Part shown: in pieces, positions 38,181-62,805 of the stretch | How the letters are laid out: every line of letters begins with the position of its first letter | How positions within the stretch are numbered: the first letter of the stretch is position 1 | Assembly (NCBI GenBank): GCA_029263395.1 | Contig: JAJCXO010000228.1 | Location: 1-64,000 of the forward strand | DNA length: 64,000 nt | Direction of reading: 5' to 3' | Origin: Acidobacteriota bacterium | GTDB taxonomy: Bacteria; Acidobacteriota; Thermoanaerobaculia; Multivoradales; J023 | Notes under the pieces: generated by a model | The model's input: the letters and a program-made list of their open reading frames with translations, nothing else | Told to the model about the DNA's origin: nothing | The model's database searches: none | Made by a program: the position numbers and the translations under genes

Positions 38181-38256
<76 letters not shown>

Positions 38257-38284
38257 ATTTTAAAGCCTTATGGCTCAAGAAGTT

Positions 38285-38308: not shown

Positions 38309-38376
38309 TGACGTTCCAGGAGGCGGCGTGTCAGCTATGTGTCAGCAGCTTGTTGGCCTGTCTACGCCTGGTTCCG

Positions 38377-40377
38377 CTAGTTTTCGCCGTCAGTATCGTC
38401 ACTGGGAGGGCGTTTGGAGCTATCAGGAGGCTCACCAGAATCCGACGTGGAGGATCTGAGTCGGTTCTTTACCCACGTTTGGAGATCGCTGAGGCGGTAG
38501 CGAATCGCTCGTGGTGAAAGCTTCGTGTACGGGGGGCCACCGCCCTTGTACCGAAATCCTTCCATGCTTCGTGGTGTCAGATCGAGAAGTTGGGCCGCAT
38601 CCTTGGTGTTGAGTAAGAGGTTCTCGGCTTCAGACTCATCGACTGCCAGCAGGAGCCGCTCGGCTCTGAGATCTCGTGCTGCTTTCTTGAGCTGCACCGC
38701 CTTCGGATTCTCTCCCGTCTCCTCGTCTTGATCAGAGATGGATGCTGTCGGCGGTATGTTGTCCTGCCTCGCCGATCGCTCGTCCGTGAGTGGTTCGTCC
38801 CTACCAAGAGTCTGTCGCCACCGCTCTGCATGCTCAACGAACGACAGGGTAAGGGAGTCTCGATGAGCTTGCGGGTCGTAGCCGAGCTCCTGCACCTTCT
38901 TCCCATACGGCAAGGTGCCCTGCCGGAGCTGCTCGCAGTCATAGAGGGCTTGCCGAACGCGATCATTGAAGAAATGTTCTCGGGCATCCGGCCCAGCATC
39001 TAGGAGTACATTCCTCAGTTCTCTTTCAAGGTAGTGGTTCAGATCGTCTTGATCAGGATCATGGAGGTTGTCACGGACACGGTCGCGGGCTGCTGCCAGG
39101 AAGTATCCGTAGGCCGGATCGACGTGAACGTGTTCTTCTTTCCTCACTCGCGCTAGCTCGGAGCGATGCAGCCGTAATGTATGGCTCACCGTATTCTCTA
39201 TCCAGCGCTCATGTATCTTGTCAGGCTTGGTTGCTCTTGCGGCTGTAACTCGATCGCGATCCTCCAGGACATCGACTTCGCGCTGCTGTCGCTTTTGGTG
39301 CCTCTCTTCTTCTGTCCTTCGTCGATCAGCTTCACGCTTGGCAATCACTGTTGCGGTAGCTGTCCGCCACGGGAGCAGGGCTCGCACCGGAACCTTGGAA
39401 TAGTGCTCCTCGTCCTTCTTTTCGGATTCGTAGCTCCGATGGACATTCGGCAGCTCGAAACGAAGCGGACACAGCTCGGCCATGATCTCGAAAAAATTCT
39501 GGGCCATGAAACGGCGGAAGCGCTTGCTGTCTGAGAGATAGGCGTCGAGTTTCGTTTTCCTGGCCTCGGGGGTATCGAGTCTTACCAGAGAACGCTCGGT
39601 AGCCAACGGTGCGAATACCTTCCCCAGGGTCAGGACTCTCAGAACCACTTGGGTCACGTGCCAGCGCAGCGCGGGCTCGGGATCATGGACGATGGTGTTC
39701 CCGACAATCAACAGCAGCTCGGTCGGCCGACCATCTACCTCCTGCAAGAGTCTCCTCCGAATCTCGTTGTACACGCCGTTGAGAATCGCCTCGTGATGAA
39801 GATCGCGAAAGATCCCTGGCAGCTCCTTGGCCGTCCACGCTCGAAAGAGCTTTTCGTCGCGGAGCAGCAGATCCCTCAACTCAGTCAAGGCCAAAATCCG
39901 CTGATTCTTCCTGCGAGAAGAGCCGAGACTCCGCCGGAGTCGGACTGTCCTCCGTCCTAGATCCGAGTCGATCAGGCGCCAGATGACAGAATCAAGGCAC
40001 GCCTCATCCTGAAGGTACTCATGACGTGGGAAGAGCGAACCCCGAACCGATCCAGCGAGTTGCCGGCGAGATCTGATGGCGCCCCAGCCCACACGCAGAG
40101 AATCAATGCCCAGAGCCAGCAAGAGACTACTTGCAGCGAGAACAGCATAAGCCTTAAACACCGCGACGAAAAAGCCGCTTTCCGCGAGATGCACTCCTGT
40201 ATTGAGAGCCCACGTCACCGATGTGATCGCCAGCAGAATGATTAGCAGACCAACACAGCCCAGAAGTGACGCCGACAACTCGGAGGGAGCAACACTACGC
40301 ATCACGCGGCCTCCCAGCACCAATCGGCCAATTGCTTTTGCCAGCACCGAACCGAATCCTCGCTTTCTGGTACTCAT
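38377..40377 (-). CDS. Membrane protein with C-terminal MerR/excisionase-type HTH
   Basis: A 666-residue protein with two N-terminal membrane spans (SLLGCVGLLIILLAITSV and FKAYAVLAASSLLLALGI, about residues 33-110) and a long charged cytoplasmic region rich in Arg and Glu. Residues about 600-650 form an HTH_17-like domain, LLNTKDAAQLLDLTPRSMEG then FRYKGGGPPYTKLSPRAI, as in AlpA/excisionase and MerR-type regulators. The gene starts one base after the stop of the upstream exported-protein gene, so the two form an operon. Membrane tethering plus an HTH suggests a sensor-regulator; the position next to the tRNA also allows a role in element excision. I do not recognise the full architecture. Confidence 0.7.
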   Translation of the reverse strand: MSTRKRGFGSVLAKAIGRLVLGGRVMRSVAPSELSASLLGCVGLLIILLAITSVTWALNTGVHLAESGFFVAVFKAYAVLAASSLLLALGIDSLRVGWGAIRSRRQLAGSVRGSLFPRHEYLQDEACLDSVIWRLIDSDLGRRTVRLRRSLGSSRRKNQRILALTELRDLLLRDEKLFRAWTAKELPGIFRDLHHEAILNGVYNEIRRRLLQEVDGRPTELLLIVGNTIVHDPEPALRWHVTQVVLRVLTLGKVFAPLATERSLVRLDTPEARKTKLDAYLSDSKRFRRFMAQNFFEIMAELCPLRFELPNVHRSYESEKKDEEHYSKVPVRALLPWRTATATVIAKREADRRRTEEERHQKRQQREVDVLEDRDRVTAARATKPDKIHERWIENTVSHTLRLHRSELARVRKEEHVHVDPAYGYFLAAARDRVRDNLHDPDQDDLNHYLERELRNVLLDAGPDAREHFFNDRVRQALYDCEQLRQGTLPYGKKVQELGYDPQAHRDSLTLSFVEHAERWRQTLGRDEPLTDERSARQDNIPPTASISDQDEETGENPKAVQLKKAARDLRAERLLLAVDESEAENLLLNTKDAAQLLDLTPRSMEGFRYKGGGPPYTKLSPRAIRYRLSDLQTWVKNRLRSSTSDSGEPPDSSKRPPSDDTDGEN

Positions 40378-42573
40378 TCACTCCGACTCCCGCTTACCAG
40401 CGCCGGAAGACTGTTGCCGCCTTCTTGCTCCTTCGATATCGAATTCCAGAGTCCGCCGTCGTCGCATGAGCATCATCAGACTCAGAACGAGCAGCAGGAC
40501 ACCAACAGCGCCCGATGAAAGACGTAGGGGGTGTGGTAGTTCGAACAGCGCTAAGACACTGGTTTCTGGCAGTGGTGTGCGCTCATCATCAGCCATAGCA
40601 ATCTCGAACTTGAGATACGTCGAAAGTGCCTTTCCCTCTGGTGGGGGCTGAGTTTCATAATCTGTAAGGAGGATTGTTAGCTCATTTCTGAGGTCAGCAA
40701 TCTCTTCACGTTCAGCGCTTTTGACCCAGCGCCGAGCCTCTTCAAGGCTCTTGCCTGTGCGCTCAAAGAACGCCTCGTTGAATGGCGGTGGCCTGAAAGG
40801 AACGTAGACCCTAGGGGTCCAGGTTCGATCAAAGTGATGGATTGCACCAAGCTGATTCTCGCGATATTCCAAGATGTACCAGGCTGGTTTTTGGCCGACA
40901 ATATCTGGCCAGTGTCTATCGGCGAATATGGCGTATCTATGCCCTTCAGCATCACTCCAGGAGCCATCGCCAACAGGGGCGTGCTGCGCTCTAGCAGCAT
41001 CGAATTTCCCCTTCCATGCTAGAAACGCCTGTCCACGGACGCGAAAGAAGTCTCCTGGATCCGGACGCTCATCGATTCGAAGAGATGACAGATCCTCAAA
41101 CGATGAACCCCACATGTGCTTTATTCGCAGCCCTAGCGAGCTTGGGAGCTTACGACTCCGTACCTCCACAGCTTGCTGCTCCGGCGGGCTGATGACCTTC
41201 AGTTTGCCATCAGCCGAGTACTCATAGATTCGCTGAAGATTCTGGCCGCCGGATTCTGCAAAGAGGAGGAGTCTGAGGAACCTGGAATCAGAGCGGCGGT
41301 AGAAGAATACTTGTTCGTCATCGGTCGTGAATATGGATGTCTCGGCGTTTGATGCTCGAACGCTGGTCCAGTCCGGTAGGTACCAATCTGATGATTGTAG
41401 CTCGGCTAGGGGTTTGAATAAATGCCTCGGTTCGACTGCCTTATAACCACGTAGCAGTTGAGAAGTCTGTACATCGCTCCAGCTGGAACCCCAGGACACG
41501 CCATAGGCTTTGTGAAGTGAGCCTGTCTCTGGAAACTCATAGCGAACCTCAGCAAGATCGTCATGGTGACTGCTTCGCTTCCTTCGCCACGTCTCAACAG
41601 AAAGATACTGATCCAATGGCAGCTCGGCATTTCCTAGAAGTGGCCGGAATTCCTGCTCGGTCCGATTGGATCTCATCCGGAAGGCGCCAGTAAGCTTACC
41701 TTCGGTCGTCTCGATCAAGAGGGCGGAGAAGAAACTTCTCGGGCGTGGTCGAATAATGAAAAACTTCTGGCGACCATATGAACTCCAGGAGTAAGCAGGA
41801 ACTGGTTTGTATTTAGTGCCATGCCAAATCCTGTCGACCGCCTCGTCTTTTACGAGTTCTCTATCGACTGGGTCCGTCTGTTTGTACATTCTCTCCCAAC
41901 GCGGGAAAGCGTCATCATGACGACCAAGAAGAAATCTATTGAGGTCTACTCTCTCCTGGGTGAGGTCGCACGGACTACTCCATTCGCAATTGGTCAGTTT
42001 GCGTATTTGACCGCTACTGACGTTTTGTAAGACGCGCCCTTTGTAATTGGCCGGTGTTATGCTGTTGAGCATGCGATACTCAATCTCAAGACCTTCTTCT
42101 GGCTTCATGTAGGCCCTGGCGAGAATCTTCGAAGGCCCTACTGTATAGATCAGAACAGCCCCCTCAGGTTCAGCGCCGCTGGGAATACGAATATGATATT
42201 GGTCGTTGCTGTCAGGTGACGGCATCCACGAGTGAGCTTCTGGCGAATACTCTCTGCGGTAACCACAGCGTAGTTTCTGTCCCAAGTTATCGTGTGCTGC
42301 CATATAGAGCTCGTGCCAGCGCTCGAAGTATTTTCTTGTTGAACTGCTGTGGCATATAAATTGATTGACGTCAATAGAGAGCGGCGGGCAGGGCGTGAGC
42401 CATTCGCATCCAGTCAGATCCTTAATCTCATGAGTTTCGAGGTACTCCGTCTTGAGGTCAACAAGACCGGAGTGGGCTCTCCCAGCCGCGAGCGCAAGAC
42501 AGAGTGATATAAGCACTTGTCTGCAGGCTTGCGAAGTGTTATAATTTAGAGATTTATTTCTCCATCTCTTCAT
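40378..42573 (-). CDS. Exported single-span membrane protein with internal repeats
   Basis: A 731-residue protein I do not recognise. It has a signal peptide (VLISLCLALAAGRAHS, to about residue 35), a large extracytoplasmic part and a C-terminal membrane helix (SSGAVGVLLLVLSLMMLM) followed by RRRR, so it should be a type I membrane protein. Two segments, LTGCEWLTPCPPLSIDVNQF (about residue 54) and LTNCEWSSPCDLTQERVDLNRF (about residue 192, shown in part), share a Cys-Glu-Trp..Pro-Cys pattern and point to a repeated domain with disulfides. Its start codon shares two bases with the start of the divergent peptidase gene. The gene for the membrane-HTH protein begins right after its stop. Confidence 0.65.
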   Translation of the reverse strand: MKRWRNKSLNYNTSQACRQVLISLCLALAAGRAHSGLVDLKTEYLETHEIKDLTGCEWLTPCPPLSIDVNQFICHSSSTRKYFERWHELYMAAHDNLGQKLRCGYRREYSPEAHSWMPSPDSNDQYHIRIPSGAEPEGAVLIYTVGPSKILARAYMKPEEGLEIEYRMLNSITPANYKGRVLQNVSSGQIRKLTNCEWSSPCDLTQERVDLNRFLLGRHDDAFPRWERMYKQTDPVDRELVKDEAVDRIWHGTKYKPVPAYSWSSYGRQKFFIIRPRPRSFFSALLIETTEGKLTGAFRMRSNRTEQEFRPLLGNAELPLDQYLSVETWRRKRSSHHDDLAEVRYEFPETGSLHKAYGVSWGSSWSDVQTSQLLRGYKAVEPRHLFKPLAELQSSDWYLPDWTSVRASNAETSIFTTDDEQVFFYRRSDSRFLRLLLFAESGGQNLQRIYEYSADGKLKVISPPEQQAVEVRSRKLPSSLGLRIKHMWGSSFEDLSSLRIDERPDPGDFFRVRGQAFLAWKGKFDAARAQHAPVGDGSWSDAEGHRYAIFADRHWPDIVGQKPAWYILEYRENQLGAIHHFDRTWTPRVYVPFRPPPFNEAFFERTGKSLEEARRWVKSAEREEIADLRNELTILLTDYETQPPPEGKALSTYLKFEIAMADDERTPLPETSVLALFELPHPLRLSSGAVGVLLLVLSLMMLMRRRRTLEFDIEGARRRQQSSGAGKRESE
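42517..42545 (+). promoter_or_regulatory. Sigma-70-like promoter for the peptidase gene
   Basis: TTGTCT (42517-42522) and TATAAT (42540-42545) are separated by exactly 17 bases and lie 26 bases upstream of the rightward ATG at 42572. The -10 is a perfect consensus. The promoter lies inside the signal-peptide coding region of the leftward gene. Confidence 0.65.
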
Positions 42574-43513
42574 GTCTAGTTCTCCTGAGCTGCCGATTCT
42601 TTCTGTTCGTGCTCCTGAATCCGATGACGCCGTTGATCCTATGAAATCTTATCTGGAAGGATTACCAGAACAGTACTTCATCAAATATAGAAAGCTGCGC
42701 CTTGAGTTGTTTTTCCGCCTGGATGAGTTTGTGAGAGATGCGAAGGGGACGGAGATCGAGGTCCATGCTCAAAGGCTGCATCAGGAATTCGATAGAACTG
42801 GAGACATGCATTTTCTTAGATTGTTCCGGGCAATTGGCTTGAAGTCGAGCCCGATCGTCCTCGACCATGTGCTGGGTGAAAGACAGCGTATGCCCCCTGT
42901 TCGCGTGGCAACCGAGACCAATACTGATCGCCTGCTGGGCGACGACTCTGACATCCCGGCCTGGTATTCGAATGCTATTTACTTTAATGCCACCCATGAA
43001 CTCCTCGGGAGTTACAGGGAGTTCAAGGCAGTGTTCTTTCACGAGCTTGTGCATGCTCTTGTTGGCGGACCGACGTATCATCGGCAAAAACTTCTTGACG
43101 AGATAGTTACAGAGTTCTTGAATCAAAAAGCGTTCGGTTACGGAGTGGCTTGGGTGCCGGAGGCGATGGAGCTGGTGGCATCGCTATACGATCTCGACTC
43201 CAAGATGCTATTGGACTGGTACTGTGGCAGAGACGATGATGCGTTCAGGCAGAGCTTGAGAACGAACCTGGCAAAGTCTTACTCGCCAGAAGCAGCGGAT
43301 GACATCGAGCGCGAGGTCTGGTTCTTGCGGCACTGGATGGTCAATGCCTGGGCCAGATCTCTCGACCGATACCAATTTGAAGATATTGCTCAAAGGTATT
43401 TTGAAAAGATAGGTCCAGACTATTTCCGAGGACTGGCAGCAAGAATCAAGGGCCGGCCAATACCCGACAGTCAAATGCCATATGAGATGAGAGTCGACGA
43501 CCCTCTGCACTAA
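42572..43513 (+). CDS. Putative zinc metallopeptidase (HExxH)
   Basis: A 313-residue protein without signal peptide or membrane span. Residues 157-161 form HELVH, in VFFHELVHALVGGP, and a Glu at 177 in LLDEIVTEFLNQ lies 16 residues later, the spacing expected for a third zinc ligand in a gluzincin-type site. I do not recognise the family; the remainder is mostly helical. Its start codon overlaps the divergent exported-protein start (CATG), and its stop overlaps the convergent ATPase gene stop by four bases. Because it sits beside a membrane-tethered HTH protein, it might process that regulator; this is inferred from position only. Confidence 0.65.
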   Translation: MSSSPELPILSVRAPESDDAVDPMKSYLEGLPEQYFIKYRKLRLELFFRLDEFVRDAKGTEIEVHAQRLHQEFDRTGDMHFLRLFRAIGLKSSPIVLDHVLGERQRMPPVRVATETNTDRLLGDDSDIPAWYSNAIYFNATHELLGSYREFKAVFFHELVHALVGGPTYHRQKLLDEIVTEFLNQKAFGYGVAWVPEAMELVASLYDLDSKMLLDWYCGRDDDAFRQSLRTNLAKSYSPEAADDIEREVWFLRHWMVNAWARSLDRYQFEDIAQRYFEKIGPDYFRGLAARIKGRPIPDSQMPYEMRVDDPLH

Positions 43514-46095
43514 AACTCCCACGGACTATTCTCCGGCAGTTCACCAACGGCAGCAGGCGGCTCAAATCTGACCTCCTCTGTAACCCCCTGTTCGGGCCTC
43601 AACCGTCGGAGCTGGCGTTGCAGAACCTCAGCAGGCAGATTCCGGTCCCAGTAGCTGTAGTAACCATCCGGGATGAAATAGGTCTCTACTTCAATCGCCG
43701 CGAGCGCCGTCTTGGCGACGACACAATGGCGGGTCGGGAGCTTCTGGAGATCATTGATGCTGATCTCCCGTTCGCCTTCCAGCGTGAAGTAGACCCGGTG
43801 CTCAGTCGTGGTCTCGCCGGCAGTCGCGGATTCCCCGGCAGCCTCAGCGGTCCCCACCGTGCTTCCTTCCTCAACGCTTTGTCCGGCAGTGCTGGTACGA
43901 GACACCGTTTGCGAAAGGGTCTCTCCGTACGAATGCGCGAGTTGCTCCAGCTGCTGGAAGGACTCGGCGAGAGAGATCTGATGGGATTTACCGATAGCGA
44001 GACTCTTGCCGCGAGCCTGGGAGACCCCCTGCATCTTGGCCCGTGACTGCGAGACTGTGTCTGTTTGCGTGATCCCGCGCTGCCGCGAGCCACCGAGCGT
44101 CTTTCCTGTCGTCGATCCCGTGTTCTGGGCCTTGCTCAAACTGTTACCTCGGGTACCAGTACTGCTGAGACTGCTGCCGACTGAGGCGGCGACACCGCGT
44201 AGGTTCTGAATGGCCTGACTAAAACTGCGACCTTGTGCGGTGGCTTGCTGATGCGTTTCGCCGAGAGCCGTCGATTGGCTGTCGGAACGATCATGCGATC
44301 CACTGTCGGGGCCAGAGCGCCGGTGGAAGGCGGTCGAGCCGTTGGTGCGCACGAAGTTATTGCCATGCGAATCAGTCACCTTGAAGTCGCGCCCGGCCGT
44401 GGCTGTCTCGCCTCGCTGGAGGGAATCTGACCGTTGCTCAGAGCTGCCGCGCTGAACTGCCAAGCTCTCGTTCTGGCTCTGGGTATAGGTGAAGCCAGTA
44501 TTGTGATTGACCATGTGGCTCCAGTTGTCACCAATGACGACACTGATGCCATGAGCTCTACTGCGCATTTCGGTCAGAGTCTCCGACTGCGAGCGGGTAA
44601 TCGTCTCCGAAATGGTCTCCTGAATGCTTTCTCCGAATCCCTCCGTGAGTGATTGCCCCAAGGTCACACCTTCAGTCTTGGCAATGCCATAGTTCTCGCT
44701 TTCGGCAATGGCGATTGAATCGGCTCGCGACCAGCTCAGCCCTGTCGAGCGCGATTTCTGGAAAGACACCGTGCGGGTCTTGGTCTGGCTGCTCCCTTGC
44801 GAACGGGCCACTTCGGAATAGCTGAAATTGTGCCGCCGCTGAGAAAGTTCGAAGAGTTCCTTGGTCATGCCCTCGGCATCCTCACGACTGAGGCGGAACA
44901 GGATTTTCACTTGGGCATTGGCCTTGATCGTTTCCAGGATGGAACGTCCTTCAGTGGTGTGGAACGGCGGTTGCGACTGTGACTGATGGACATTGATCAT
45001 GCGCAGGTTGTATTGGCGCAGCGTCGTTGCCGCTTTGGCAAACTCGATGTCGGCGAATTCGTGGAATTCGTCGATGTAGAGGTAGTAGGGCGAGCGCTCT
45101 TCGGGTTTTCTCCGATAAGCAGCGCGCTGGAACTTGGTCGCCAGAAACGTGCCGACCAGCTGGCAGCCCTTGAGGTTCTTTCCGAGCGGCAGAGAACAGA
45201 ACAAGCTGCGGCGCTGGCGCAGCAGCTCGGGCACGTGAATCGTGCTCTCGCGAGTATCGAAGAACCGAGCGACCAGAGAATCGCCAAGGAAGTACTGCAG
45301 AACGTTCCAAGTCGATTCCAGCCGTTCCTGTTGCTGCCCTGCTGTGAAACGGGCGAAGAACTTCGTCCAATAGGTCTTCACATAGGAATTCAGCCGTGAG
45401 TCTGGGATGGCTCGAACCAGCCGGACGCGGGTGTCGTCGTCCGCAGCGAGGAATTCCGCCGCGAAAGTGAGATTCAGCGGGTACTGGAACCCCTCGATAG
45501 CAGGGCGTTCTTCCTGAGGGAGCCGGTTCAGTTCCGCGATCACCCATAGGCAGTTGCGCAGGTTGTTGCGGATACGCCGGGTCTGGTCGATGTCCCCGAA
45601 CAGCCGTTCGGCCGCTTTCAGGAAGTCGTCGACCTGCTCTTCCGTCGTCTCTTCACCTTGTGGCTCCAGCGGATTGAGACGCAGCGGATTGGCTGGCGTG
45701 TCGAGATCGAGAAAGAGGTAGCGCTCAAGCAGGCTGTCCAGCTCATGGTTCCGGCGCTCGGCGATCTCGAGACAGCGGGCGATGAACTCCAGCGCTTTGC
45801 GGTAGAGCGACCCAGTGGGATCGAGCAGACAGAGCGGGCGCTGACAGATGATGTCCTGGACGAGCATGTTCTCCAGGAAGCGAGATTTACCGCTACCAGT
45901 CACACCACATATATAGACGTGTGCAGCACGATCTCCATCCTCAAGCACTACATGCCGATTACTCTCGCGGGCCTGGCCAAGAAAGAGGTGGTCAGGAAGT
46001 TCGGACGGGTAGAGCGAATCCGGCCCATTGGCGAACAGGAAGCGGCGTTGGTAGGGAACGGGGTGCATTGGCCTCACGGATCTGAGTGCTGACAC
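43510..46095 (-). CDS. HerA/VirD4-like conjugative ATPase with Ser/Thr/Gln-rich insert
   Basis: An 861-residue P-loop ATPase related to HerA/FtsK and type IV secretion DNA-binding proteins. Walker A is ICGVTGSGKSRFLEN (near residue 60), the next block is LCLLDPTGSLYRKAL and Walker B is YYLYIDEFHEFAD (near residue 345), with the later NAQVKILFRLS segment typical of the family. From about residue 420 to 755 the chain becomes strikingly rich in Ser, Thr, Gln and Gly with an alternating pattern, before a folded C-terminal part with VYFTLEGEREISINDLQKLP. The start is GTG at 46095; an ATG at 46068 is an alternative. With the relaxase and replication-relaxation genes it suits DNA handling during transfer. 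Confidence 0.85.
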   Translation of the reverse strand: MSALRSVRPMHPVPYQRRFLFANGPDSLYPSELPDHLFLGQARESNRHVVLEDGDRAAHVYICGVTGSGKSRFLENMLVQDIICQRPLCLLDPTGSLYRKALEFIARCLEIAERRNHELDSLLERYLFLDLDTPANPLRLNPLEPQGEETTEEQVDDFLKAAERLFGDIDQTRRIRNNLRNCLWVIAELNRLPQEERPAIEGFQYPLNLTFAAEFLAADDDTRVRLVRAIPDSRLNSYVKTYWTKFFARFTAGQQQERLESTWNVLQYFLGDSLVARFFDTRESTIHVPELLRQRRSLFCSLPLGKNLKGCQLVGTFLATKFQRAAYRRKPEERSPYYLYIDEFHEFADIEFAKAATTLRQYNLRMINVHQSQSQPPFHTTEGRSILETIKANAQVKILFRLSREDAEGMTKELFELSQRRHNFSYSEVARSQGSSQTKTRTVSFQKSRSTGLSWSRADSIAIAESENYGIAKTEGVTLGQSLTEGFGESIQETISETITRSQSETLTEMRSRAHGISVVIGDNWSHMVNHNTGFTYTQSQNESLAVQRGSSEQRSDSLQRGETATAGRDFKVTDSHGNNFVRTNGSTAFHRRSGPDSGSHDRSDSQSTALGETHQQATAQGRSFSQAIQNLRGVAASVGSSLSSTGTRGNSLSKAQNTGSTTGKTLGGSRQRGITQTDTVSQSRAKMQGVSQARGKSLAIGKSHQISLAESFQQLEQLAHSYGETLSQTVSRTSTAGQSVEEGSTVGTAEAAGESATAGETTTEHRVYFTLEGEREISINDLQKLPTRHCVVAKTALAAIEVETYFIPDGYYSYWDRNLPAEVLQRQLRRLRPEQGVTEEVRFEPPAAVGELPENSPWEF

Positions 46096-46426: not shown

Positions 46427-47335
46427 CTATAGAAATTCTGCTCTGAGAAGCGCCCTTCTCTCCCCACTCGCCACCACCCAAATCGCCTCGAACACCGGAT
46501 CCCGCTCCTTCAGTTCGTCGAACGTCGTAAACGCCATCAGCTCAAACCCCGGCTCTCCATGAAGATGACGGCGCAGCAGCTCGATACGCCGGGCATGCGT
46601 GGTAACGAAGAGCACCCGGAAGTCATCAACCTGGCCATAGCGTTGCCACAAATACCGGTCTGGGTGCTGAGGATCACGTGTCCGTAGGTAGTGCGAGTAG
46701 CCAACCTGCTTCGCAGCGATCTCCTTCGGCCCCTCACTCCCTCGATCCGCCTCAAGCAAGAACAACCGACTGGCCGTACCCTGAGCCAAAGCGAAAACGA
46801 GATCCGGCCGAATCCGCCACGGCTCAAGGTGGCTAGGCGAAGAAATATCCTGCTGCGTCACGAAACGTTCGACATGTTTCTTTCGCGAAGCATCCTCGAC
46901 AGCATGCGTATGGTAGAAGAGTACCCACAGCGGAGCGAGCTCGGGCGTCGTGACCGCCGTTCCCCGCAACGATTCAGTGAATCGCACCGCACACTCCGTC
47001 ACCATCAACGGATGGAGCAGTTGCTGCGCCGTGTCCGTTCGTGACTGGTAAAGCCGGCGTTGATCGATCCCGTAGCGATCACGGAGTGGAGCCAAGGCCT
47101 TCTGGCCCAGGAAGTAGATACGCTCCCTGCTGCTTAAGAGCGTGTCAGGTAGCAGATACCCAGCATCAGCGAGTCGCTTCATGCGCTTGCGGACATTGTC
47201 CAGCGCCGACAAGCGACCCGTCGCCGGCTGGAAGTAGCGTGCCCGTCGGATCTGCTCCAGCGTCATCACCCGCAGCATCCAGAGCCACCGAAAGACCTCA
47301 AGATCACCGTCCGTGAGAGTGAGTCGTTGTGACAT
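46427..47335 (-). CDS. Replication-relaxation family protein
   Basis: A 302-residue protein beginning MSQRLTLTDGDLEVFRWLWM, then LRVMTLEQIRRARYF, a winged-helix opening typical of the Replic_Relax family (PF13814). The middle contains RPDLVFALAQGTASRLFLLE, a nuclease-like strand pattern with conserved Asp and Glu. Family knowledge places these proteins on mobile elements next to conjugative ATPases, with proposed roles in DNA relaxation or replication initiation. It lies upstream of the HerA-like ATPase gene on the same strand, separated by an untranslated stretch. Two 14-bp direct repeats lie immediately upstream. Confidence 0.85.
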   Translation of the reverse strand: MSQRLTLTDGDLEVFRWLWMLRVMTLEQIRRARYFQPATGRLSALDNVRKRMKRLADAGYLLPDTLLSSRERIYFLGQKALAPLRDRYGIDQRRLYQSRTDTAQQLLHPLMVTECAVRFTESLRGTAVTTPELAPLWVLFYHTHAVEDASRKKHVERFVTQQDISSPSHLEPWRIRPDLVFALAQGTASRLFLLEADRGSEGPKEIAAKQVGYSHYLRTRDPQHPDRYLWQRYGQVDDFRVLFVTTHARRIELLRRHLHGEPGFELMAFTTFDELKERDPVFEAIWVVASGERRALLRAEFL

Positions 47336-52933: not shown

Positions 52934-53989
52934 TCAGTATTTACTCTTGCGAAAAAAAGTGCCCCAAGCCGCTCTTCCAACATGGGATAGCCTCCTTCGG
53001 GACAATGACTGCAAGCAGGACTCGACCTCGTCAGAGAGTTCCTTGGCAGATGAATAACGAGCCGATGGGTCTGGATTGGTCGCCTTAACAACAATAGACT
53101 CAATGGCGGCGCGGAGTGCATGCAAATCCAGGCTGTTTCTGAACCTGTCTCTCAGGGGAGTTTCGTTTTCCTCAGAGTCATCGTCATCAAGGACGAAGAG
53201 TAACTGCAATATCCGCCCCAACGAATAGATATCTGATGCTATTGTTGCGACCCCGTTACTGACTTGCTCTGGACTCGCGAACTCTGGGGTGCAAGCTCGT
53301 CTAGCTACTTCTGATTCGAAGAAGCCAGTGGCATTACATGAAATACCGAAATCCAGCAACTTCGGCGCGTTGTCACTTCTCACCAAGATGTTGGATGGCT
53401 TTAGATCGGAGTGGACAACCAGTTCCTCGTGTGCATAGTGGACGGCGCCGCAAACCTGGATAAATAGCTCCAGCCTAAGAGGCAAACTGAGTTTATGCTG
53501 AACGCAATGGCTGCCGATGGGGAGGCCGTCTACATGCTCCATTACAATATACGCAGTCTGAGACTTGGTCATGCCCGCGTCGTAATACTTGGCTATGCAT
53601 GGGTGGTACAAGTCGGCGAGAAATCGTTTTTCGTGGTGGAAGAATAAAATATTGCGGCCGAGTCCAACGCCTCTCGGGAACAGCTTCAGCGCGACGTTCT
53701 CGTCGGGCGTGGCTTCGTGCGATGCCAAATAGACCACGCCCATGCCACCCCTTCCCAGTAGCCGCTTGGGGCGATACTGGCCTACCTGCCCAGGGATTTC
53801 AGCCGTCGGGCGAAGCGTCACCAATGGTTCAATTGATCTGTGGTCGACTCTAGTGAGATCTAATACCGCTTTGTAGAGCTTTCGGTCCTTTCCACAGCGC
53901 TCTTGCAAGAAGGCCTGCCTCTGGTGGCCGGGGAGCTCAAGAGTATCAGCCGCGAGCTCCTTGACTCGTTTCCAATATGCAGGTTTCAT
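52934..53989 (-). CDS. Ser/Thr protein kinase, PknB-like
   Basis: A 351-residue cytoplasmic kinase. It shows the Gly-rich loop LGRGGMGVVYLAS (near residue 78), ATP-binding Lys in NVALKLFPRG, catalytic loop VVHSDLKPSNILV (HSD instead of the common HRD), LDFGIS and the APE-like region PEFASPEQVS. The N-terminal 65 residues are helical, as in acidobacterial and planctomycete kinases that follow ECF sigma genes. There is no transmembrane sensor domain. The ATG overlaps the ECF sigma gene stop by four bases, so the two are co-translated; the kinase may phosphorylate the sigma factor or its targets. Confidence 0.9.
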   Translation of the reverse strand: MKPAYWKRVKELAADTLELPGHQRQAFLQERCGKDRKLYKAVLDLTRVDHRSIEPLVTLRPTAEIPGQVGQYRPKRLLGRGGMGVVYLASHEATPDENVALKLFPRGVGLGRNILFFHHEKRFLADLYHPCIAKYYDAGMTKSQTAYIVMEHVDGLPIGSHCVQHKLSLPLRLELFIQVCGAVHYAHEELVVHSDLKPSNILVRSDNAPKLLDFGISCNATGFFESEVARRACTPEFASPEQVSNGVATIASDIYSLGRILQLLFVLDDDDSEENETPLRDRFRNSLDLHALRAAIESIVVKATNPDPSARYSSAKELSDEVESCLQSLSRRRLSHVGRAAWGTFFRKSKY

Positions 53990-54579
53990 TTTTTTAACTG
54001 TGCCTCTAGGAAGCGCCTCGAAATCGACCAGTCTCGCCTTACCGTCCGTTCGGTAACCCCTGTTACTTCAGCGATTTCTCGCACCGTCAGTCCTAGGAAG
54101 TACCGGTATCGGACGATTTTTGCCGCACGAGAATCTAGCCGACTGAGCTTCTTGATAGCTCTGTCAACATCAAGGATGTTTGGAGAAAAATAGGCTGGAA
54201 ATACGGGGTGGTGAATCAGCTCACTAGATGCTGATAAGATCTCGTGGCCAGCTCCCCTTTTCTCGGTTTGCTTCATGCGTGCGTAGTCAACAAGCACTCG
54301 TCGCATGATGGTTGCCGCGAACTGGAAGAACTCGTCGCTTGATTTCCAAGTGGCCTTGCGGGAGCTGTTGAGCCGAAAATAGACCTCGCTGACGAGCGCA
54401 GTCGGCTGAAGAGTGTGGGCAGGAGACTCCTTTTGAAAAATGCGCGCAGCCATGGCTCGGAGGTCGTCAAAGACTATAGGGATCAGAGCCTCCAGCGCTC
54501 GCTCGTTGCCGTTGGACCAGTCTGCCAGAAGAGTTGTGACCGGGGTATCACCCCCTTGGTCTCCGCCTGGTTTCGACAT
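53986..54579 (-). CDS. ECF sigma factor
   Basis: A 197-residue sigma factor of the ECF type linked to Ser/Thr kinases. Region 2 covers about residues 20-95, including LIPIVFDDLRAMAARIFQKE, then FFQFAATIMRRVLVDYARM. Region 4 covers about 130-190 with the helix-turn-helix RYRYFLGLTVREIAEVTGVT, ERTVRRDWSISRRFL. The neighbouring kinase overlaps it by ATGA. Since no anti-sigma gene is present, control by kinase phosphorylation is plausible by analogy with such pairs. It is carried on the mobile element. Confidence 0.92.
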   Translation of the reverse strand: MSKPGGDQGGDTPVTTLLADWSNGNERALEALIPIVFDDLRAMAARIFQKESPAHTLQPTALVSEVYFRLNSSRKATWKSSDEFFQFAATIMRRVLVDYARMKQTEKRGAGHEILSASSELIHHPVFPAYFSPNILDVDRAIKKLSRLDSRAAKIVRYRYFLGLTVREIAEVTGVTERTVRRDWSISRRFLEAQLKK

Positions 54580-55618: not shown

Positions 55619-58600
55619 TTGTCGAAAAAAGGGCGAACCGATTCCGGCATAGAAGTACACTCTGGTTATCTTAATGTAGTCCTCTTTGAATCGACTCCTG
55701 AGAGGATTTTGGATGTCGCTCTCGAGAGCAGGCGGCGTGTAGACAAACTTGGCAAGCTCCGCGAACTCGATCGAGAGCTGCCGTGGTTTCCCCGTGACAT
55801 TGCGGGACCGGCTGAAGCTACTGCCAGGAAAGACGGTAGGAAATTCTACCGGCCTCGGGTCTACATCCTGTCTGGCACATTCGATGTAGCGACAGTGTTC
55901 TTCTCGCCAGAAATAGAACTCGCTTCGTGGAGCCATCGAGATGAGCTTCGAGAATCTGGGCAAGACGCCAACCTGTCGCTCTTGCCAACAAAAGCCAGTC
56001 TCGGCTTGAAGAGCAAACTCCCTGATTTTAACCACGAATTTCGTGAAGAGTACCTTAAAAGGGGGCAGTCCTCTACGCGCGGTGACCACGACTTCGTAGC
56101 TATAACAAAACTGAAATTGAACGCTGCCCACTGGCCTAAGAGAGAAAGTCAGGCAACAGATGAGAAAGGTCGCTTTCCGGAAATCTTCAAGGCTGTCTGG
56201 AAGACAATCGAAAGTTGGAGGGAGAATACGGAAGTTGTGGGTCGTCCAAGGCCACTGGTGGCGTTTGGGCTTACCTTCGGGTGGAGCGAGTGTCTTGTGG
56301 TCGCACATGCCGATAGCCCTGGCAAGCTCCTGCAGCTCTCAGTGAACTTGCGGTCACTAACCCTTTCTGTCGACCCGTTTCTTCTGAAGATAAAGGATAA
56401 AAGCAAAGAGTGGACTTCCCATATCTTTGCCACGACGATTAGCTCTGTGGGTTACGATTATGCGATCCGTGAGAAGGCGAAGGAGCGAATCATCGCTGAT
56501 CTAGACGATGGTAAGCAAATCACGGCAGACTCCATCGTAAACTCCTTCATGCGTGAGGTGGCTGGAGAGATTCGGCCCCTTGAAAAGGGAGAGGTCGAAG
56601 ACTCTTTCTATCTTTTAGGTTGCCACGTTTATCCGGGTCACGAGCTGCGAGTAGTCAGGCTTCTCTCCGAGATCGACGATACGCTGGGTTCAGAAAAAAC
56701 GACCGGGATGGTCACCGTCGATAGCGGCAAGAGAGACTTGCTCAGCTCACGATTTCTGATCGGTCCGGGTCGCCTGAGCCCGCGCGAAGCTGTCGCCTTG
56801 GTTGAATTGCTTCATATTTGGATACGTTTTGGTGGGGGCTCGAGCGCATCTTCGCAAGACGCTGAAGAGAGAATACCTCATGCTTTCGACTTCCACACGC
56901 GAACCGGATATTCCGCCGCGCGCAATGGGACTAGCACTCTGAAGGACTACAACGAAGATGTTCATATAAGAGGCACGCCAGCAGCGTATTTCATGATCGG
57001 TCGACCTGCTCTGGCAGCTCGACTTGAACTGTCTTCGGCACCCAAAACTTCCCTGGCTACTCTCAGGGAGAGTATGCGGTCTGTCCAGATCCCTTACTAT
57101 CTTGCGGAGCAAGTTTTAAACTTAATCAGTACGTTTCATTGGGTTCACAACAGAGAGGTGATCTGGGACGAAAGCGCAGAGCTTATTCCAGTAATCCTTG
57201 CTCTGTCGGAAAATATTCTGGCCCATGCAAGGTGGTGGAATTCCGGCAAGCCGCGAGTCTTCAGCGAACCGTGGGTGCAGAGTTCAGAGGCCGAGCGCCG
57301 GAAGATACTTGTTGACAGAGTACGGAGGCGCCTCCGTGGATATGTCGACAGAGAGTTGCCAGAGCTGCTGAGCTCTTTTCGTGCCTACTTTTACAATCGG
57401 CATCTTTCCAGTTATCTGACGGATGAGATGCCAGATACGAATTTGCGTTTTCGCGGATCACTGCATCAACTGCTGAGTGTTGGAAACCTGATTCTCGACA
57501 CGTTTGCTGACACTGTCCTGGGCCCGCGTGCCTGCATGGCGAATATTGGCGATAGTGCTTCTCCAGAAGTTGAGCGACTTTGTGATATTACGGTCGTTCG
57601 ATTGAATACTCACACTTTTAATATTCCGATTCTGCTTGAATCGCTAGCTCATGAGGTTGGTCACCAGTTTCTTCGAGAGCTAGTGAAAGACAGTGTCGAC
57701 TCAAAGTGGCGGGCTCATCCATGGAATAGCTGGTTTGATGATCACTGTGAGGATGTGCCTCGAAAGAAGAACTTCCGACGTCTGAAGAACTCCGTCATGG
57801 AGCTGAATCACACGATCTTTGATTCTTCCTTAGACAGCGAAGCACCCGACGCCGTTGCTTTCATCGAATCAGCGAGCGATTTCATCGAAACGAGACTTCT
57901 TGCGTACACGGATCTAGGGACATGGGTGGTCAGTTTTCTGCTGCGTACAGCACTGGCCAGTCTGCCCGACGACTATGACCCGGACAAGGAGCGGTCTTTG
58001 AACCATGAAGACGTCCCATACATGGGAAACGATCTAGTTGTCTCCGCAATCCAGCGTGCTGTACTAACCGTGATTGCAGATCAACTGCAACGGCAGACGC
58101 GTGAAGAAGACGGCGAACTACTGGCGCCGGACTTAGAGGACTTTAGAGAAAAGCTGATTCGCGTAGACCTAGAGAAGATCCGCCAGACGATTGAGCGCGC
58201 TTGTATTATAGGGAAGGCCGGTGAGGCGGCCACGATTGTCTGCGATGCAGCACTCTGGAGAGATTTCTTACGGTACAAAGTCTTCTACCGTCGACCGTGG
58301 TTTGCAAATCAAGCCGCACTCAATCTGGCTGCGGAGACCTTCTATACACTGCATAGGCATGTTAGCTGGAGACCGCCAGATGACTTCAGGTCTCCCGGTC
58401 GATTCTTGCCATGTGTGCAAGATGCTTTTTCTGAACTGCGTAAGGTTCTTTTAGCAAATTATCTTCCGAGCCTGCATGTGCGCTTCTGGCTCTCAAACAA
58501 AGAGAAGGCCCAGTTCCGTTCGTCCGGAAGCCTTGCTTCAGGTCGGGAGCCCTGGGTGCCTCTCCTGCAGCCTATGACGGTACTAAAGACCAGGCATAAG

Positions 58601-58810
58601 ATTATCTACAAGAGTATCATTTTTCAGCGTGGGAATATTCTTCCGTGTGGAGACTACGTGAAGGTTTGGAGCGATGCGAATTCAACCTTCCTCGTTAGGG
58701 CAATACAGATGATTCCTGCCTGGCGATTGTCTATTCTTGAGCAGGCTAATGCGATGGCAGGAATATGTGGAAAAAGGGATGAAGAGACAGAGGCGAGCAC
58801 TAAAACGTAA
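55619..58810 (+). CDS. Large gluzincin-like metallopeptidase, SIR2-associated
   Basis: A 1063-residue soluble protein I do not recognise as a named family. Residues 678-682 read HEVGH, in LLESLAHEVGHQFLREL, and residues 750-754 read ESASD, in FIESASDFIETRLL. This is like the HExxH...NExxSD arrangement of thermolysin-type gluzincins, where both His and the later Glu bind zinc. The first about 350 residues look like two alpha/beta sensor modules (RVYILSGTFDVATVFF and LTFGWSECLVVAHAD); this reading is weak. The remainder is mainly helical. The start is TTG at 55619, with AAAGGGGA upstream. The SIR2 gene starts before its stop, so both are co-translated. Confidence 0.75.
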   Translation: MSKKGRTDSGIEVHSGYLNVVLFESTPERILDVALESRRRVDKLGKLRELDRELPWFPRDIAGPAEATARKDGRKFYRPRVYILSGTFDVATVFFSPEIELASWSHRDELRESGQDANLSLLPTKASLGLKSKLPDFNHEFREEYLKRGQSSTRGDHDFVAITKLKLNAAHWPKRESQATDEKGRFPEIFKAVWKTIESWRENTEVVGRPRPLVAFGLTFGWSECLVVAHADSPGKLLQLSVNLRSLTLSVDPFLLKIKDKSKEWTSHIFATTISSVGYDYAIREKAKERIIADLDDGKQITADSIVNSFMREVAGEIRPLEKGEVEDSFYLLGCHVYPGHELRVVRLLSEIDDTLGSEKTTGMVTVDSGKRDLLSSRFLIGPGRLSPREAVALVELLHIWIRFGGGSSASSQDAEERIPHAFDFHTRTGYSAARNGTSTLKDYNEDVHIRGTPAAYFMIGRPALAARLELSSAPKTSLATLRESMRSVQIPYYLAEQVLNLISTFHWVHNREVIWDESAELIPVILALSENILAHARWWNSGKPRVFSEPWVQSSEAERRKILVDRVRRRLRGYVDRELPELLSSFRAYFYNRHLSSYLTDEMPDTNLRFRGSLHQLLSVGNLILDTFADTVLGPRACMANIGDSASPEVERLCDITVVRLNTHTFNIPILLESLAHEVGHQFLRELVKDSVDSKWRAHPWNSWFDDHCEDVPRKKNFRRLKNSVMELNHTIFDSSLDSEAPDAVAFIESASDFIETRLLAYTDLGTWVVSFLLRTALASLPDDYDPDKERSLNHEDVPYMGNDLVVSAIQRAVLTVIADQLQRQTREEDGELLAPDLEDFREKLIRVDLEKIRQTIERACIIGKAGEAATIVCDAALWRDFLRYKVFYRRPWFANQAALNLAAETFYTLHRHVSWRPPDDFRSPGRFLPCVQDAFSELRKVLLANYLPSLHVRFWLSNKEKAQFRSSGSLASGREPWVPLLQPMTVLKTRHKIIYKSIIFQRGNILPCGDYVKVWSDANSTFLVRAIQMIPAWRLSILEQANAMAGICGKRDEETEASTKT

Positions 58811-60008
58811 TACCGCTGGGCGAGCTCTCCGATCACTTACTAGTTGGTTCTTTGAGGGGAAGCTTGTGCCCGTCATCGGGGCAGGGGCAAGCAAAGATCT
58901 CGGTGTCCCACTGTGGGGTGCGCTTGCCAAGAGTATGGCTACCGGTTACGTTCGGGATCCGGGCGATCTCACTACCAGGGATCTGTTGCTAGCATTCGAG
59001 TTGATGAGCCAGAAGGGAGAGTTATTTTGGGATGATCTGCGGGATCAGCTCTTCTCTTCAACGGAAGAAGGGACGTATTTTGAAGATGCGGATCCGTCAA
59101 CGCTCAAGACAGGTGAGTTGTGGGCGAGTGAAAAATGCACGCACGATAGCTCGCTTCAGTATCTAGCAGCGCTCTGTATCCTGAATGCCCTCCTTTTTCC
59201 TGAGAGGGCGTTTCATGTGATGACTTACAATCTAGATACCCTGTTAGAAGAGAAGATTGCAGCACTAGGTCATCGGGCAATTGCTATAACCGATGAACAC
59301 GAGGCGGTCTGGGAACCGGTCTGTGAGCCAAGCGGTAGTGAACCACTCGTCACGGAAAGACCGAGTATGCATGTCGGACAAAGGGCCGATATTAGGGTGT
59401 TTCATCCCCATGGCTTGGTACTGCGAGCTTCTAAGGCGCGAGCTTTAGGGAGGGAGCAGTGCTATATAAAGCCGATGATGAGACTCAGTGACTATGAATA
59501 CTTAGCCAATAACACTCTTGGGGGCGTCGGCCTATTGCAGTTGCAGGCTCTCCGTAATCTTCGTGGGTTCTTTTATGGTTTTTCATTTTCAGACCCCAAT
59601 GTCCGTCGCCTAGCGAGCCTGACCATTCAGCTTGGTGCAGAGGAGGTTTTCTCTAAAGAATTAGACTGGCGCAGTGGCTGGCGCCGATCGAAGCGAGACT
59701 TTGACTGGATTCGGCATATCATTCTCTTGTCGACCCATCAGAGAGACGCGGAGATCAGATGCCGCTCTCTCTTTGGCCCATTTTCGGCCTCTTCTGAGCC
59801 AAGCGCAGAAGAACGGTTGCAGTATAATTTAACCCAGCTACGCATGCTGCGGGTCGGTTTCTGGAGTGTGAAGCAACATAAAATACTTCTTATAAGGCTT
59901 TTGCACAGTATCAACAGGGACCTCAGATTTCAGTGGCCAGCGCCAGGTTTCTCAACACCACCAGGTGGTCGTGTTGGCGAAACCTCTGCCCATCTGAAAA
60001 TAGACTGA
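58749..60008 (+). CDS. SIR2-type NADase effector
   Basis: A 419-residue protein of the SIR2_2 type. The NAD-binding loop is LVPVIGAGASKDLGVPLW (G44-S48 region), the catalytic Asn161 and Asp163 are in MTYNLDTLLEE, and catalytic His221 is in RVFHPHGLVLR. These match SIR2 NADases of anti-phage systems such as Thoeris and DSR rather than protein deacetylases, as no zinc ribbon is present. The C-terminal about 170 residues are helical, without signal or transmembrane segments. The ATG at 58749 lies inside the upstream peptidase gene; in-frame alternatives are the TTG at 58737, GTG at 58767 and ATG at 58779. I infer that it depletes NAD+ when triggered by its partner. Confidence 0.85.
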   Translation: MRWQEYVEKGMKRQRRALKRNTAGRALRSLTSWFFEGKLVPVIGAGASKDLGVPLWGALAKSMATGYVRDPGDLTTRDLLLAFELMSQKGELFWDDLRDQLFSSTEEGTYFEDADPSTLKTGELWASEKCTHDSSLQYLAALCILNALLFPERAFHVMTYNLDTLLEEKIAALGHRAIAITDEHEAVWEPVCEPSGSEPLVTERPSMHVGQRADIRVFHPHGLVLRASKARALGREQCYIKPMMRLSDYEYLANNTLGGVGLLQLQALRNLRGFFYGFSFSDPNVRRLASLTIQLGAEEVFSKELDWRSGWRRSKRDFDWIRHIILLSTHQRDAEIRCRSLFGPFSASSEPSAEERLQYNLTQLRMLRVGFWSVKQHKILLIRLLHSINRDLRFQWPAPGFSTPPGGRVGETSAHLKID

Positions 60009-60211: not shown

Positions 60212-61552
60212 ATGAGCCGCCGCGAGGAACGGAGATTCCTGAATTCACAGAAGAGCGGGCTGATTTTGTCGCCTCGCTGCCGCCTGACCCAGCGCGACTC
60301 CTTCACCAACCTCGCTCTGGTGGCACCAACCGGCTCGGGTAAAACAACCCGCTATGTCATTCCCAATGTGCTGGCAGCCGAGGGTTCTGTGCTCGTCACC
60401 GATCCTTCGGGCGAGATCTTCGCGCAAACTTCGGGGCATCTGCGGGAACGAGGCTTCCGTATTCAAGTCCTCCAGCCAGCCGACCTCAAACATAGCCTGC
60501 GCTTTAACCCCCTCCACTATTGGCGTACACCACAAGAGCTGCGGCAGCTCGCCTCAATCCTGGCATTGAGCGGCTCCAACGGCCGCTCTGATCCGTTCTG
60601 GACGGTTTCAGCAGTGAACGTACTGTACTTGGTGCTGTCAGCCCTGGTCAATGTGCCGGAACGGAGCTACATCAACCTGGCGAACCTGCGCTGGCTCTTG
60701 AATCACCTTGGTGCTCGTGAAGATTCGGGCATGCACTCTTTCATGAGCCGGCATCTCGAGCAGCAGGACTCGCGAGTCTTTTCGGAGTATCTGGCGTTCT
60801 GTGCCACCGAGCCGAAGGTGCGAGCATCAATTATTGCCAGTGCTCGAGCTGCTTTGGAATTGTGGTCGGATCCAGAAGTCTGTCGCTTCACCGCCAGCAA
60901 TACGATCGACTTGGAGCCGTTGCGGCATCGGCACACCGCGATTTACATCATCGTGCCTGAACATCAAGTGACGTACTTCTCGCTGCTGCTGAATCTGTTC
61001 TACTCCGCCTGCTTTGCCCATTGCCTGCGAAGCGACGCCACCGAGCTCCTGCCCGTCTTCTTCTTCCTCGACGAGTTCGGGAATCTCGGACGGATTCAGA
61101 ACTTCGCCTCGATCATCACCACACTGCGCAAACGTCGCTGCTCAGTGAGCATCATTCTTCAGGCGCTCTCCCAACTGGAGACGATCTACGGGCGAGCTGA
61201 GGCACGAACCATCTCTTCAGGCGGCTGTGCGAACAAGCTCTTCTACTCGGGTCTCGATCTCGAGACAGCTCGCTACGTCGAACAGATGCTCGGCCAGAAT
61301 ACCGAGTACGACACGACCTTCGGCGGCATCAGTGAGCATGCCCGCACGATCGGCGTGCCGCTGATGAGTGCCGATCAGATCAGGATGCTGCGAGAGGATG
61401 AAGGCATTCTCATCTCCGGTCGGGAGCGACCGGCGAAGTTTGTGATGCCTCCGTGCTTCCGCGTTGAACAACAACGCCGGCTTATTCAGAAACCTCCGGT
61501 GGCGCTCGGCATCAATGATTCGGATGAGGTTGTGAAGTATCTGGAACTGTGA
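60212..61552 (+). CDS. VirD4/TraG-like coupling ATPase
   Basis: A 446-residue ATPase that would link the relaxase-DNA complex to a secretion channel. Walker A is LVAPTGSGKTTRYVIP (near residue 40), followed by SVLVTDPSGEIFAQTSG, and Walker B is VFFFLDEFGNLGRI (near residue 283). The late block RCSVSIILQALSQLETIYG is typical of the family. In-frame sequence upstream of the ATG encodes RSRVHGDARW, where HGDARW resembles the conserved opening of VirD4 proteins, so the real start is probably upstream, though no ATG, GTG or TTG exists there (a CTG lies at 60113). No N-terminal transmembrane pair is seen. Confidence 0.85.
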   Translation: MSRREERRFLNSQKSGLILSPRCRLTQRDSFTNLALVAPTGSGKTTRYVIPNVLAAEGSVLVTDPSGEIFAQTSGHLRERGFRIQVLQPADLKHSLRFNPLHYWRTPQELRQLASILALSGSNGRSDPFWTVSAVNVLYLVLSALVNVPERSYINLANLRWLLNHLGAREDSGMHSFMSRHLEQQDSRVFSEYLAFCATEPKVRASIIASARAALELWSDPEVCRFTASNTIDLEPLRHRHTAIYIIVPEHQVTYFSLLLNLFYSACFAHCLRSDATELLPVFFFLDEFGNLGRIQNFASIITTLRKRRCSVSIILQALSQLETIYGRAEARTISSGGCANKLFYSGLDLETARYVEQMLGQNTEYDTTFGGISEHARTIGVPLMSADQIRMLREDEGILISGRERPAKFVMPPCFRVEQQRRLIQKPPVALGINDSDEVVKYLEL

Positions 61553-61566
61553 CGAGCTTCGCCCCT

Positions 61567-62655: not shown

Positions 62656-62805
62656 GGAGTCTTGGACACTTGAACGAATCGGCAGGAGACAGCCAATGCC
62701 AAGCCCAGGCCGTGTTCGGGAGAATCTCGAGAGTAACCCATGATTGCGTTCGTTCTGGTTTCAGGTGGAGTGAGAAAAAGGGAGAAAAACTGACGGGCGC
62801 CAGTG

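Follow-up and report, generated by a model that had tools for sequence, protein, structure and literature searches.

The locus at the tRNA-Ala gene

We analysed a 64,000-nucleotide stretch (the window) of contig JAJCXO010000228.1, from the Acidobacteriota assembly GCA_029263395.1, in which three genes between positions 38,377 and 43,513, here called P1, P2 and HELVH, lie beside a tRNA gene. P1 ends in a helix-turn-helix (HTH) domain of the type found in recombination directionality factors (RDFs), and P1 and P2 close a DNA-transfer operon. An earlier note on this DNA had placed the three genes next to a tRNA and treated them as an island of their own. All three were recovered, beside a tRNA-Ala (GGC); the genes are real, but the operon runs past 43513 into genes for a VirD4-like ATPase and a Replic_Relax protein. 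The features are:

38182..38257, + strand: tRNA-Ala (GGC), found by ARAGORN and Rfam; presumed integration target
38328..38347, + strand: tandem repeat of 11-bp period, TGTCAGC-N4-TGTCAGC, read as integrase arm-type sites
38377..40377, - strand: P1, 666 aa, with two membrane spans, a long helical body and a C-terminal RDF-type winged helix
38431..38616, - strand: RdfS-like winged-helix domain of P1, residues 588-649, from PF12728, the RdfS sequence match and AlphaFold2 (AF2)/Foldseek
40378..42573, - strand: P2, 731 aa, with a signal-like N-terminus, a duplicated Cys-Glu-Trp (CEW) segment and a C-terminal membrane span
42572..43513, + strand: HELVH gene, 313 aa, with an HExxH motif; an orphan, antisense inside the operon
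43510..46095, - strand: VirD4/TraG-like ATPase, 861 aa, with a Ser/Thr-rich C-terminal half (PF02534, PF10412, PF12696)
46427..47335, - strand: Replic_Relax (PF13814) protein, 302 aa (E 1.4e-17)

The P2 stop codon directly abuts the P1 ATG with zero gap, the start codons of HELVH and P2 overlap (CATG), and the HELVH stop overlaps that of the VirD4-like ATPase gene by 4 bp. With a codon-usage model built from the island's other genes, the annotated frame came top of six for P1, P2 and HELVH. The lead of P2 over its own antisense frame was small (0.077 versus 0.061), and its score was slightly negative with a chromosomal model. G+C content was 0.52 in P2, 0.51 in HELVH and 0.59 in the adjoining ATPase gene. 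Scanning the region for promoters and terminators gave no more sites than shuffled sequence did; one promoter-like site (42517-42545; 10/12, extended -10) lies within the 5' end of P2, just ahead of the HELVH start.

P2 has a signal-like N-terminal span and a single C-terminal span, and P1 has hydrophobic spans at about residues 36-54 and 69-96. The description of an exported single-span protein with CEW repeats, directly followed by a two-span HTH protein, was thereby confirmed. The repeats are two copies of a duplicated segment (CEW at 56 and 196), whose local alignment score of 81 compares with a maximum of 46 in 500 shuffles. In P1, residues 1-35 contain seven Lys/Arg against a single acidic residue and span two is followed by an Arg-rich segment, so that the C-terminus is predicted to be cytosolic.

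P1 ends in an excisionase-type winged helix

The C-terminal part of P1 matched HTH_17 (PF12728) at residues 588-639 (E 2.3e-6; 28.2 bits, cut-off 27). By sequence, its best solved relative was RdfS (PDB 8dgl; E 3.7e-6), followed by the GIsul2 excisionase (8c3t; E 0.05). The AF2 model of P1, built from a 15-row alignment in which two rows span the body, had a mean predicted local distance difference test score (pLDDT) of 64.5 and a predicted template modelling score (pTM) of 0.30. The HTH domain was its most confident part (10-residue blocks at 90-97), and a helix near 350-370 likewise exceeded 90. Foldseek ranked RdfS first, then the GIsul2 excisionase, a viral packaging-motor protein and BldC, with Pukovnik Xis at rank 11; the best E was 3.6e-3, with no match at 0.001 or better, the HTH being about one tenth of the model. 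By sequence and predicted fold, the domain is an RDF/excisionase-type winged helix. The structure prediction proposed in the earlier note thus returned a DNA-binding fold, and of its label 'MerR/excisionase-type' the second half stands, RdfS being best by both sequence and fold, while the MerR regulator falls away.

RdfS, from ICEMlSymR7A, has an HTH_17-type winged helix with 35% identity to the P1 domain in the Foldseek alignment, and its gene is likewise tied to a transfer operon (PMC11963761). RdfS is, however, a free small protein (a 91-residue PDB chain), whereas here the domain forms the C-terminus of the 666-aa P1 or of an ATPase of about 1,100 aa (see below), and its gene stands at the tRNA/attachment-site (att) end. 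The GIsul2 excisionase, the mycobacteriophage protein Pukovnik Xis (4j2n) and BldC (6ama) share the winged-helix fold in the Foldseek matches; they too are short chains, unlike a domain within a large protein. P1 has some traits of the RDF class: the excisionase-group winged helix is present, and the gene is the last of a transfer operon, 119 bp from tRNA-Ala. It is not a small standalone protein. From residue 496 on, the in-frame starts before or in the HTH are GTG 561 (38697), a possible internal start, and ATG 605, which lies inside the domain. The model places helices at 558-577 and 581-584 ahead of the domain; the corresponding trait in the RDF class, an oligomerising N-terminal alpha-1 helix, applies to ICESym RdfS only. 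The HTH_17 family is frequent, with nine matches in P1's own genome (eight above the cut-off) and a presence in 11 of 14 control genomes.

P1 and P2 belong to a rare transfer operon

We searched related genomes with P1, with the window ATPase and with the tailed ATPases described below. In most genomes the best two to six first-look candidates were scored, and the counts are lower bounds. A first genome-wide scan with P1 had given 54 pattern matches and zero relatives. The P1 search of 196 genomes found matches in at least 30. Among the matches scored, a single other genome, G247, of the same genus, matched the P1 body (28% identity over residues 9-369, plus 374-523); the other rows sit at or around the HTH, one of them, with stops, beginning at residue 514. 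The window ATPase had matches at E 1e-10 or better in at least 21 of 295 genomes, covering the ATPase part alone except in G247 (58% identical), G270 (38% identical) and its own gene. Among 21 loci (84,980 named species), near full-length relatives were confined to JAJCXQ010000051.1 and JAGQSE010000170.1, which are Acidobacteriota metagenome-assembled genome (MAG) contigs, namely those of G247 and G270. A scan of viral contigs with the ATPase alignment gave nine loci, mostly of the ATPase part only, and plasmids held no homologue of the window ATPase. Its residues from about 430 to 763, a Ser/Thr/Gly-rich C-terminal half, resemble part of NF033849 and are also present in G247 and G270.

In G247 the order is integrase end, a 198-aa small protein, P1, a P2-like protein, the VirD4-like ATPase, Replic_Relax and TPR; only 3 bp separate the ATPase gene from that of P2, with no HELVH gene in between. 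The order in G270 is rearranged: a standalone HTH, Replic_Relax, a P2 homologue (E 1e-9), a coiled coil, a small protein that is the same as the 198-aa one of G247, a 119-aa open reading frame (ORF) and the VirD4-like ATPase. Replic_Relax homologues thus lie within the operon in both. The operon Replic_Relax - VirD4-like ATPase - P2 - P1 keeps this gene order in one other genome; a second genome has it rearranged, with no recognisable P1. From these two gene orders we conclude that P1 and P2 end a rare transfer operon, with HELVH inside it on the opposite strand. Between the integrase end and the P1 operon of G247 we also noticed, by eye, a tRNA-Phe-like 3' fragment (L033 396-584, G247:C51), an attP-like junction of a circle or a tandem. 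A further P2 match, in G263 (L124), comprised just the C-terminal span and arginines and was rejected as convergence; it adjoins what we take to be an IPTL-like sorting tail.

HELVH did not follow this operon. Neither G247 nor G270 has it at the locus of the shared operon, and there was no match in 246 other genomes of the phylum, its own genome standing alone among 247. A search of 245 relatives (a set overlapping the 247) at E up to 1 gave rows in 33 genomes including its own, and four of the rows were inspected: the best one outside its own genome (L109, E 0.001) runs antisense to a different ORF, contains stops and is not credible, and L110, L111 and L116 were taken as noise. There was no Pfam match up to E 10 and none in NCBIfam, PADLOC, PDB or plasmids; a single weak PHROG match (E 0.084) was to a family of unknown function. 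In a viral contig collection one stretch encoding a HELVH relative was counted, its locus not given; it is perhaps the window itself or near it, and the region may be catalogued as viral. The AF2 single-sequence model (pLDDT 45) was not used. Hydropathy gave no membrane span. A single HExxH occurs, at residues 157-161; since 2.2% of shuffles with the protein's composition also contain one, the motif counts for little by itself. The zinc-peptidase of the earlier note is thus present as a motif, with no family match behind it, and the label 'metallopeptidase' comes from the HExxH sequence alone. HELVH would be a non-conserved cargo gene. An antisense gene within an operon recalls the 'noncontiguous operons'.

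These results bear on the model proposed at the outset, in which P2 senses the outside, P1 is a membrane-tethered transcription factor and HELVH cleaves and releases it. The three genes are adjacent and the topology permits such a scheme, the P1 C-terminus being predicted cytosolic and HELVH having no span. However, the conservation of the neighbourhood, which the earlier note had named as a check, was not found: HELVH is not conserved with the P1/P2 pair, so the three genes do not co-occur. P1 and P2 go instead with the VirD4-like ATPase and Replic_Relax, the HTH is of RDF type, and the promoter and terminator scans were no better than shuffles. We give this model very little credence.

Some VirD4-like ATPases carry the same tail and mostly end at tRNA genes

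In related genomes, VirD4-like ATPases of about 1,000-1,150 aa end in the same RDF-type domain. We found at least 12 such tailed loci (295 genomes plus a second search), 11 of them in five families that belong to the window's order; the twelfth, G349, comes from a further family within the same class, which makes six families. The long tailed frame is intact in 5 of the 12 (G292, G152:C51, G282:C40, G254:C13 and G349); in G273 it is split in two frames, and the remaining six are fragments, cut by a contig end or broken. The gene upstream encodes a two-span protein of about 220 aa (six loci listed). Like VirD4/TraG coupling ATPases, the window ATPase and, taken together, the tailed ATPases match PF02534, PF10412 and PF12696; what sets the tailed ATPases apart is an additional long N-terminal region and the RDF domain at the C-terminus. 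To our knowledge, an excisionase domain is not usual in VirD4/TraG coupling ATPases. Among plasmids, 47 records matched a tailed ATPase and none covered 80% of it; the 10 listed cover 30-38%, around the ATPase part. The idea that the middle of the tailed ATPases is a Replic_Relax domain was unsupported (hhalign probability 0.4; in Pfam just stray nuclease hints).

In nine of the 12 tailed loci the gene is followed by a convergent tRNA (Ala in four, Arg in two, and Phe, Thr and Pro) whose 3' end is 58-102 bp away, and all nine have a tandem repeat of exactly 11-bp period in or at the edge of the gap. G292 has the repeat and a degenerate tRNA-Thr, seen by eye and missed by ARAGORN and Rfam; neither tRNA nor repeat follows the broken gene of G279:C154 or the intact one of G349. 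For eight sites (the window and seven tailed loci), the chance of such a repeat was 0.06-0.6% in simple shuffles and 0.8% in 120-bp contig windows, the period having been first noticed on the same sites as were used for this test.

We then looked for tRNA 3'-end repeats in six contigs (those of the window, G282, G273, G254, G152 and G238). Exact repeats delimit elements of 30.5 kb at tRNA-Ala in G254, 37.8 kb at tRNA-Arg in G152 and 53.1 kb at tRNA-Phe in G273; none was found in G282 (a short contig) or G238 (60 kb). In each of the three elements an integrase gene, sharing its strand with the tailed gene, lies just within the far repeat, and in the stretches of 67-80 kb around them the tandem repeat occurs exactly twice, once inside each end and in the same orientation. 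These three tailed loci are real, delimited integrative elements. With a repeat inside each end and the integrase on the strand of the tailed gene, the order on the excised circle would be tailed gene, attP, int, all in one direction. Integrase expression in ICEKp1 is reported to be state-dependent across attP, through a promoter switch (PMC13023037). As there, excision joins the two att sides, and in G254, G152 and G273 the tailed gene and int would run in one direction across attP; instead of a promoter switch, an RDF-tailed gene would lie upstream of int on the circle.

The tail might instead be a DNA tether, or a relaxosome/oriT-recognition domain, that recruits element DNA to the transfer ATPase or the membrane and has no part in excision control. 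Its long carriers in these genomes are transfer proteins, and the intact tailed gene of G349 has neither tRNA nor repeat after it. The standalone domain of G270 precedes Replic_Relax, which resembles the position of rdfS upstream of oriT and rlxS in ICEMlSymR7A (PMC11963761). On the other hand, 9 of the 12 tailed loci end at a tRNA and a tandem repeat, which is the place of an RDF and of att rather than of oriT, and the closest fold of the domain is an excisionase. We regard the tether as rather unlikely.

The window's own element

P1 ends 119 bp from tRNA-Ala, with TGTCAGCTATGTGTCAGC in between. The TGTCAGC pair in this gap is the only exact pair in the 85 kb contig, and G247 has the same pair following its own tRNA-Ala. 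The tailed element of G254 occupies the same chromosomal place, at a tRNA-Ala that likewise neighbours this TlpA-like gene. Of 14 relative loci retrieved, 7 have a tRNA-Ala no more than about 1.5 kb away from the TlpA-like orthologue. An RdfS-like HTH and an att-like tandem repeat in the tRNA-P1 gap thus lend support to the earlier suggestion of an excision-control locus beside a tRNA.

At the far side, outside the window, lies an integrase fragment of 201 aa (PF00589; contig 76776-77381, - strand), and the region has two other PF00589 genes. Since the fragment lies where the other elements have int, and on the strand of P1, the simplest reading is that the element measures about 39 kb and has decayed at its right end. 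The contig also contains, at position 68960 (G000:C228; L034 4960), a tRNA-like 3' end (TTCGAGTCC...CGACCA) between two phage-integrase-family genes. It does not resemble tRNA-Ala and may be an att scar left by a nested element.

A proposed coupling of excision to transfer

Taking the observed gene order, RDF-type domain, repeat and tRNA layout, tail-at-att position in relatives and three delimited elements together, we lean towards the reading that these are RDF-tailed transfer proteins, which would couple excision to transfer. P1 and P2 would be parts of the DNA-transfer module of a tRNA-Ala-integrated mobile element, P1 as a subunit anchored in the membrane and carrying the element's excision factor, an RdfS-type RDF, as its cytosolic C-terminus, and P2 as its exported single-span partner. 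The tail may bind the attachment region, which starts about 30 bp beyond the P1 stop, and steer the integrase to excision. Being built into the transfer apparatus, the tail would keep the excised attP at the membrane, close to the VirD4-like ATPase. We infer the RDF activity, the coupling, the topology and the P1-P2 partnership from the features above.

Several points weigh against this reading. The P1-HTH fusion is one case in one MAG. P1 of G247 has no HTH, and the positional counterpart of P2 there, a single-span protein with a signal-like start, is weakly similar (E 7e-4); the coiled-coil protein of G270, compared with P1 of G247, was not detectably P1. GTG 561 could yield a free RDF and so weaken the case for coupling. 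No far repeat of tRNA-Ala was found in the 85 kb contig, either with 14-base seeds (one match, to the 5' part of the tRNA) or with up to 7 mismatches, apart from the unrelated tRNA-like 3' end at contig 68960; there is no second tandem repeat pair, and the far integrase is a fragment. Searching the contig for repeats of the tRNA-P1 gap gave only the gap's own hairpin. Finally, at least eight loci have homologues with no tail (match starting before residue 230; rows matching the ATPase part alone were left out).

Seven of these untailed genes were examined, and the 11-bp repeat was present in the 200 bp downstream of none. A tyrosine integrase gene follows about 40-50 bp downstream in G114 and G157, in the latter before a tRNA-Met, and a recombinase-like gene, recognised by eye, about 105 bp downstream in G254:C116. 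In G141 (L208 1788-2917, G141:C11) the gene overlaps an ORF that has a weak match to this HTH at its C-terminus (E 4e-5), and a tRNA-Thr comes next; this is a possible unfused stage. The other three had no integrase, recombinase, HTH ORF or tRNA of these kinds downstream; one untailed gene, G152:C44, is a broken copy, and for G070 only a tRNA scan was made, which found none.

Some of these features would also fit a decay by-product, in which P1 took up a once separate RDF gene as the element was dying, with free RDF still produced from the internal GTG. The far end of the window element is probably decayed, GTG stands at residue 561 and P1 of G247 has no HTH. In a FastTree tree (supports not printed) the P1 HTH groups with standalone HTHs, including the one ahead of Replic_Relax in G270, and is separate from most ATPase tails. 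Against decay, the P1 frame is open and best by codon usage through both body and HTH, and analogous VirD4-like ATPase fusions occur in 12 loci of six families, and five of these loci keep the long frame intact. We consider decay quite improbable.

More tentatively, and with more doubt than belief, we extend the reading of RDF-tailed transfer proteins to a class of integrative elements in Acidobacteriota: the excision factor would be an inseparable tail of the transfer machine, apparently acquired at least twice, on the VirD4-like ATPase and on the window's membrane-anchored partner, so that excision would take place only at the transfer apparatus and the new attP would be delivered to the pore. 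RDFs, VirD4-like ATPases and tRNA-integrated elements are each known. The covalent union of RDF and ATPase recurs in Acidobacteriota and is read towards att wherever a tRNA was found. We came across no such fusion in literature titles and abstract openings; one could still be in print. Shared transcription is the usual explanation of how mobile elements tie their departure from the chromosome to the possibility of transfer. If the fusion of an excision factor with a transfer ATPase or membrane partner couples both, the link would be physical rather than transcriptional. The signature of a tRNA, an 11-bp repeat and a tailed transfer gene also offers a simple finder of element ends in Acidobacteriota.

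Other genes of the island

Besides the Replic_Relax/VirD4-like operon, the island holds a second transfer set at 60212-63837, with a second VirD4 (PF02534, 60212-61552), RadC and a MobA/VirD2-like relaxase (PF03432, 62806-63837). The region between P1 and the integrase fragment also holds a primase-like protein and, by eye, type I restriction-modification-like genes. At 55619-60008, the gene for a 1,063-aa HEVGH protein overlaps one whose 423-aa product is SIR2-like (PF13289, E 6e-5, just under the cut-off), a pair that looks like two-gene defence-type cargo. Also inside the island, at 52934-54579, a gene for an extracytoplasmic function (ECF) sigma factor (PF07638) is directly followed by one for a Ser/Thr kinase.

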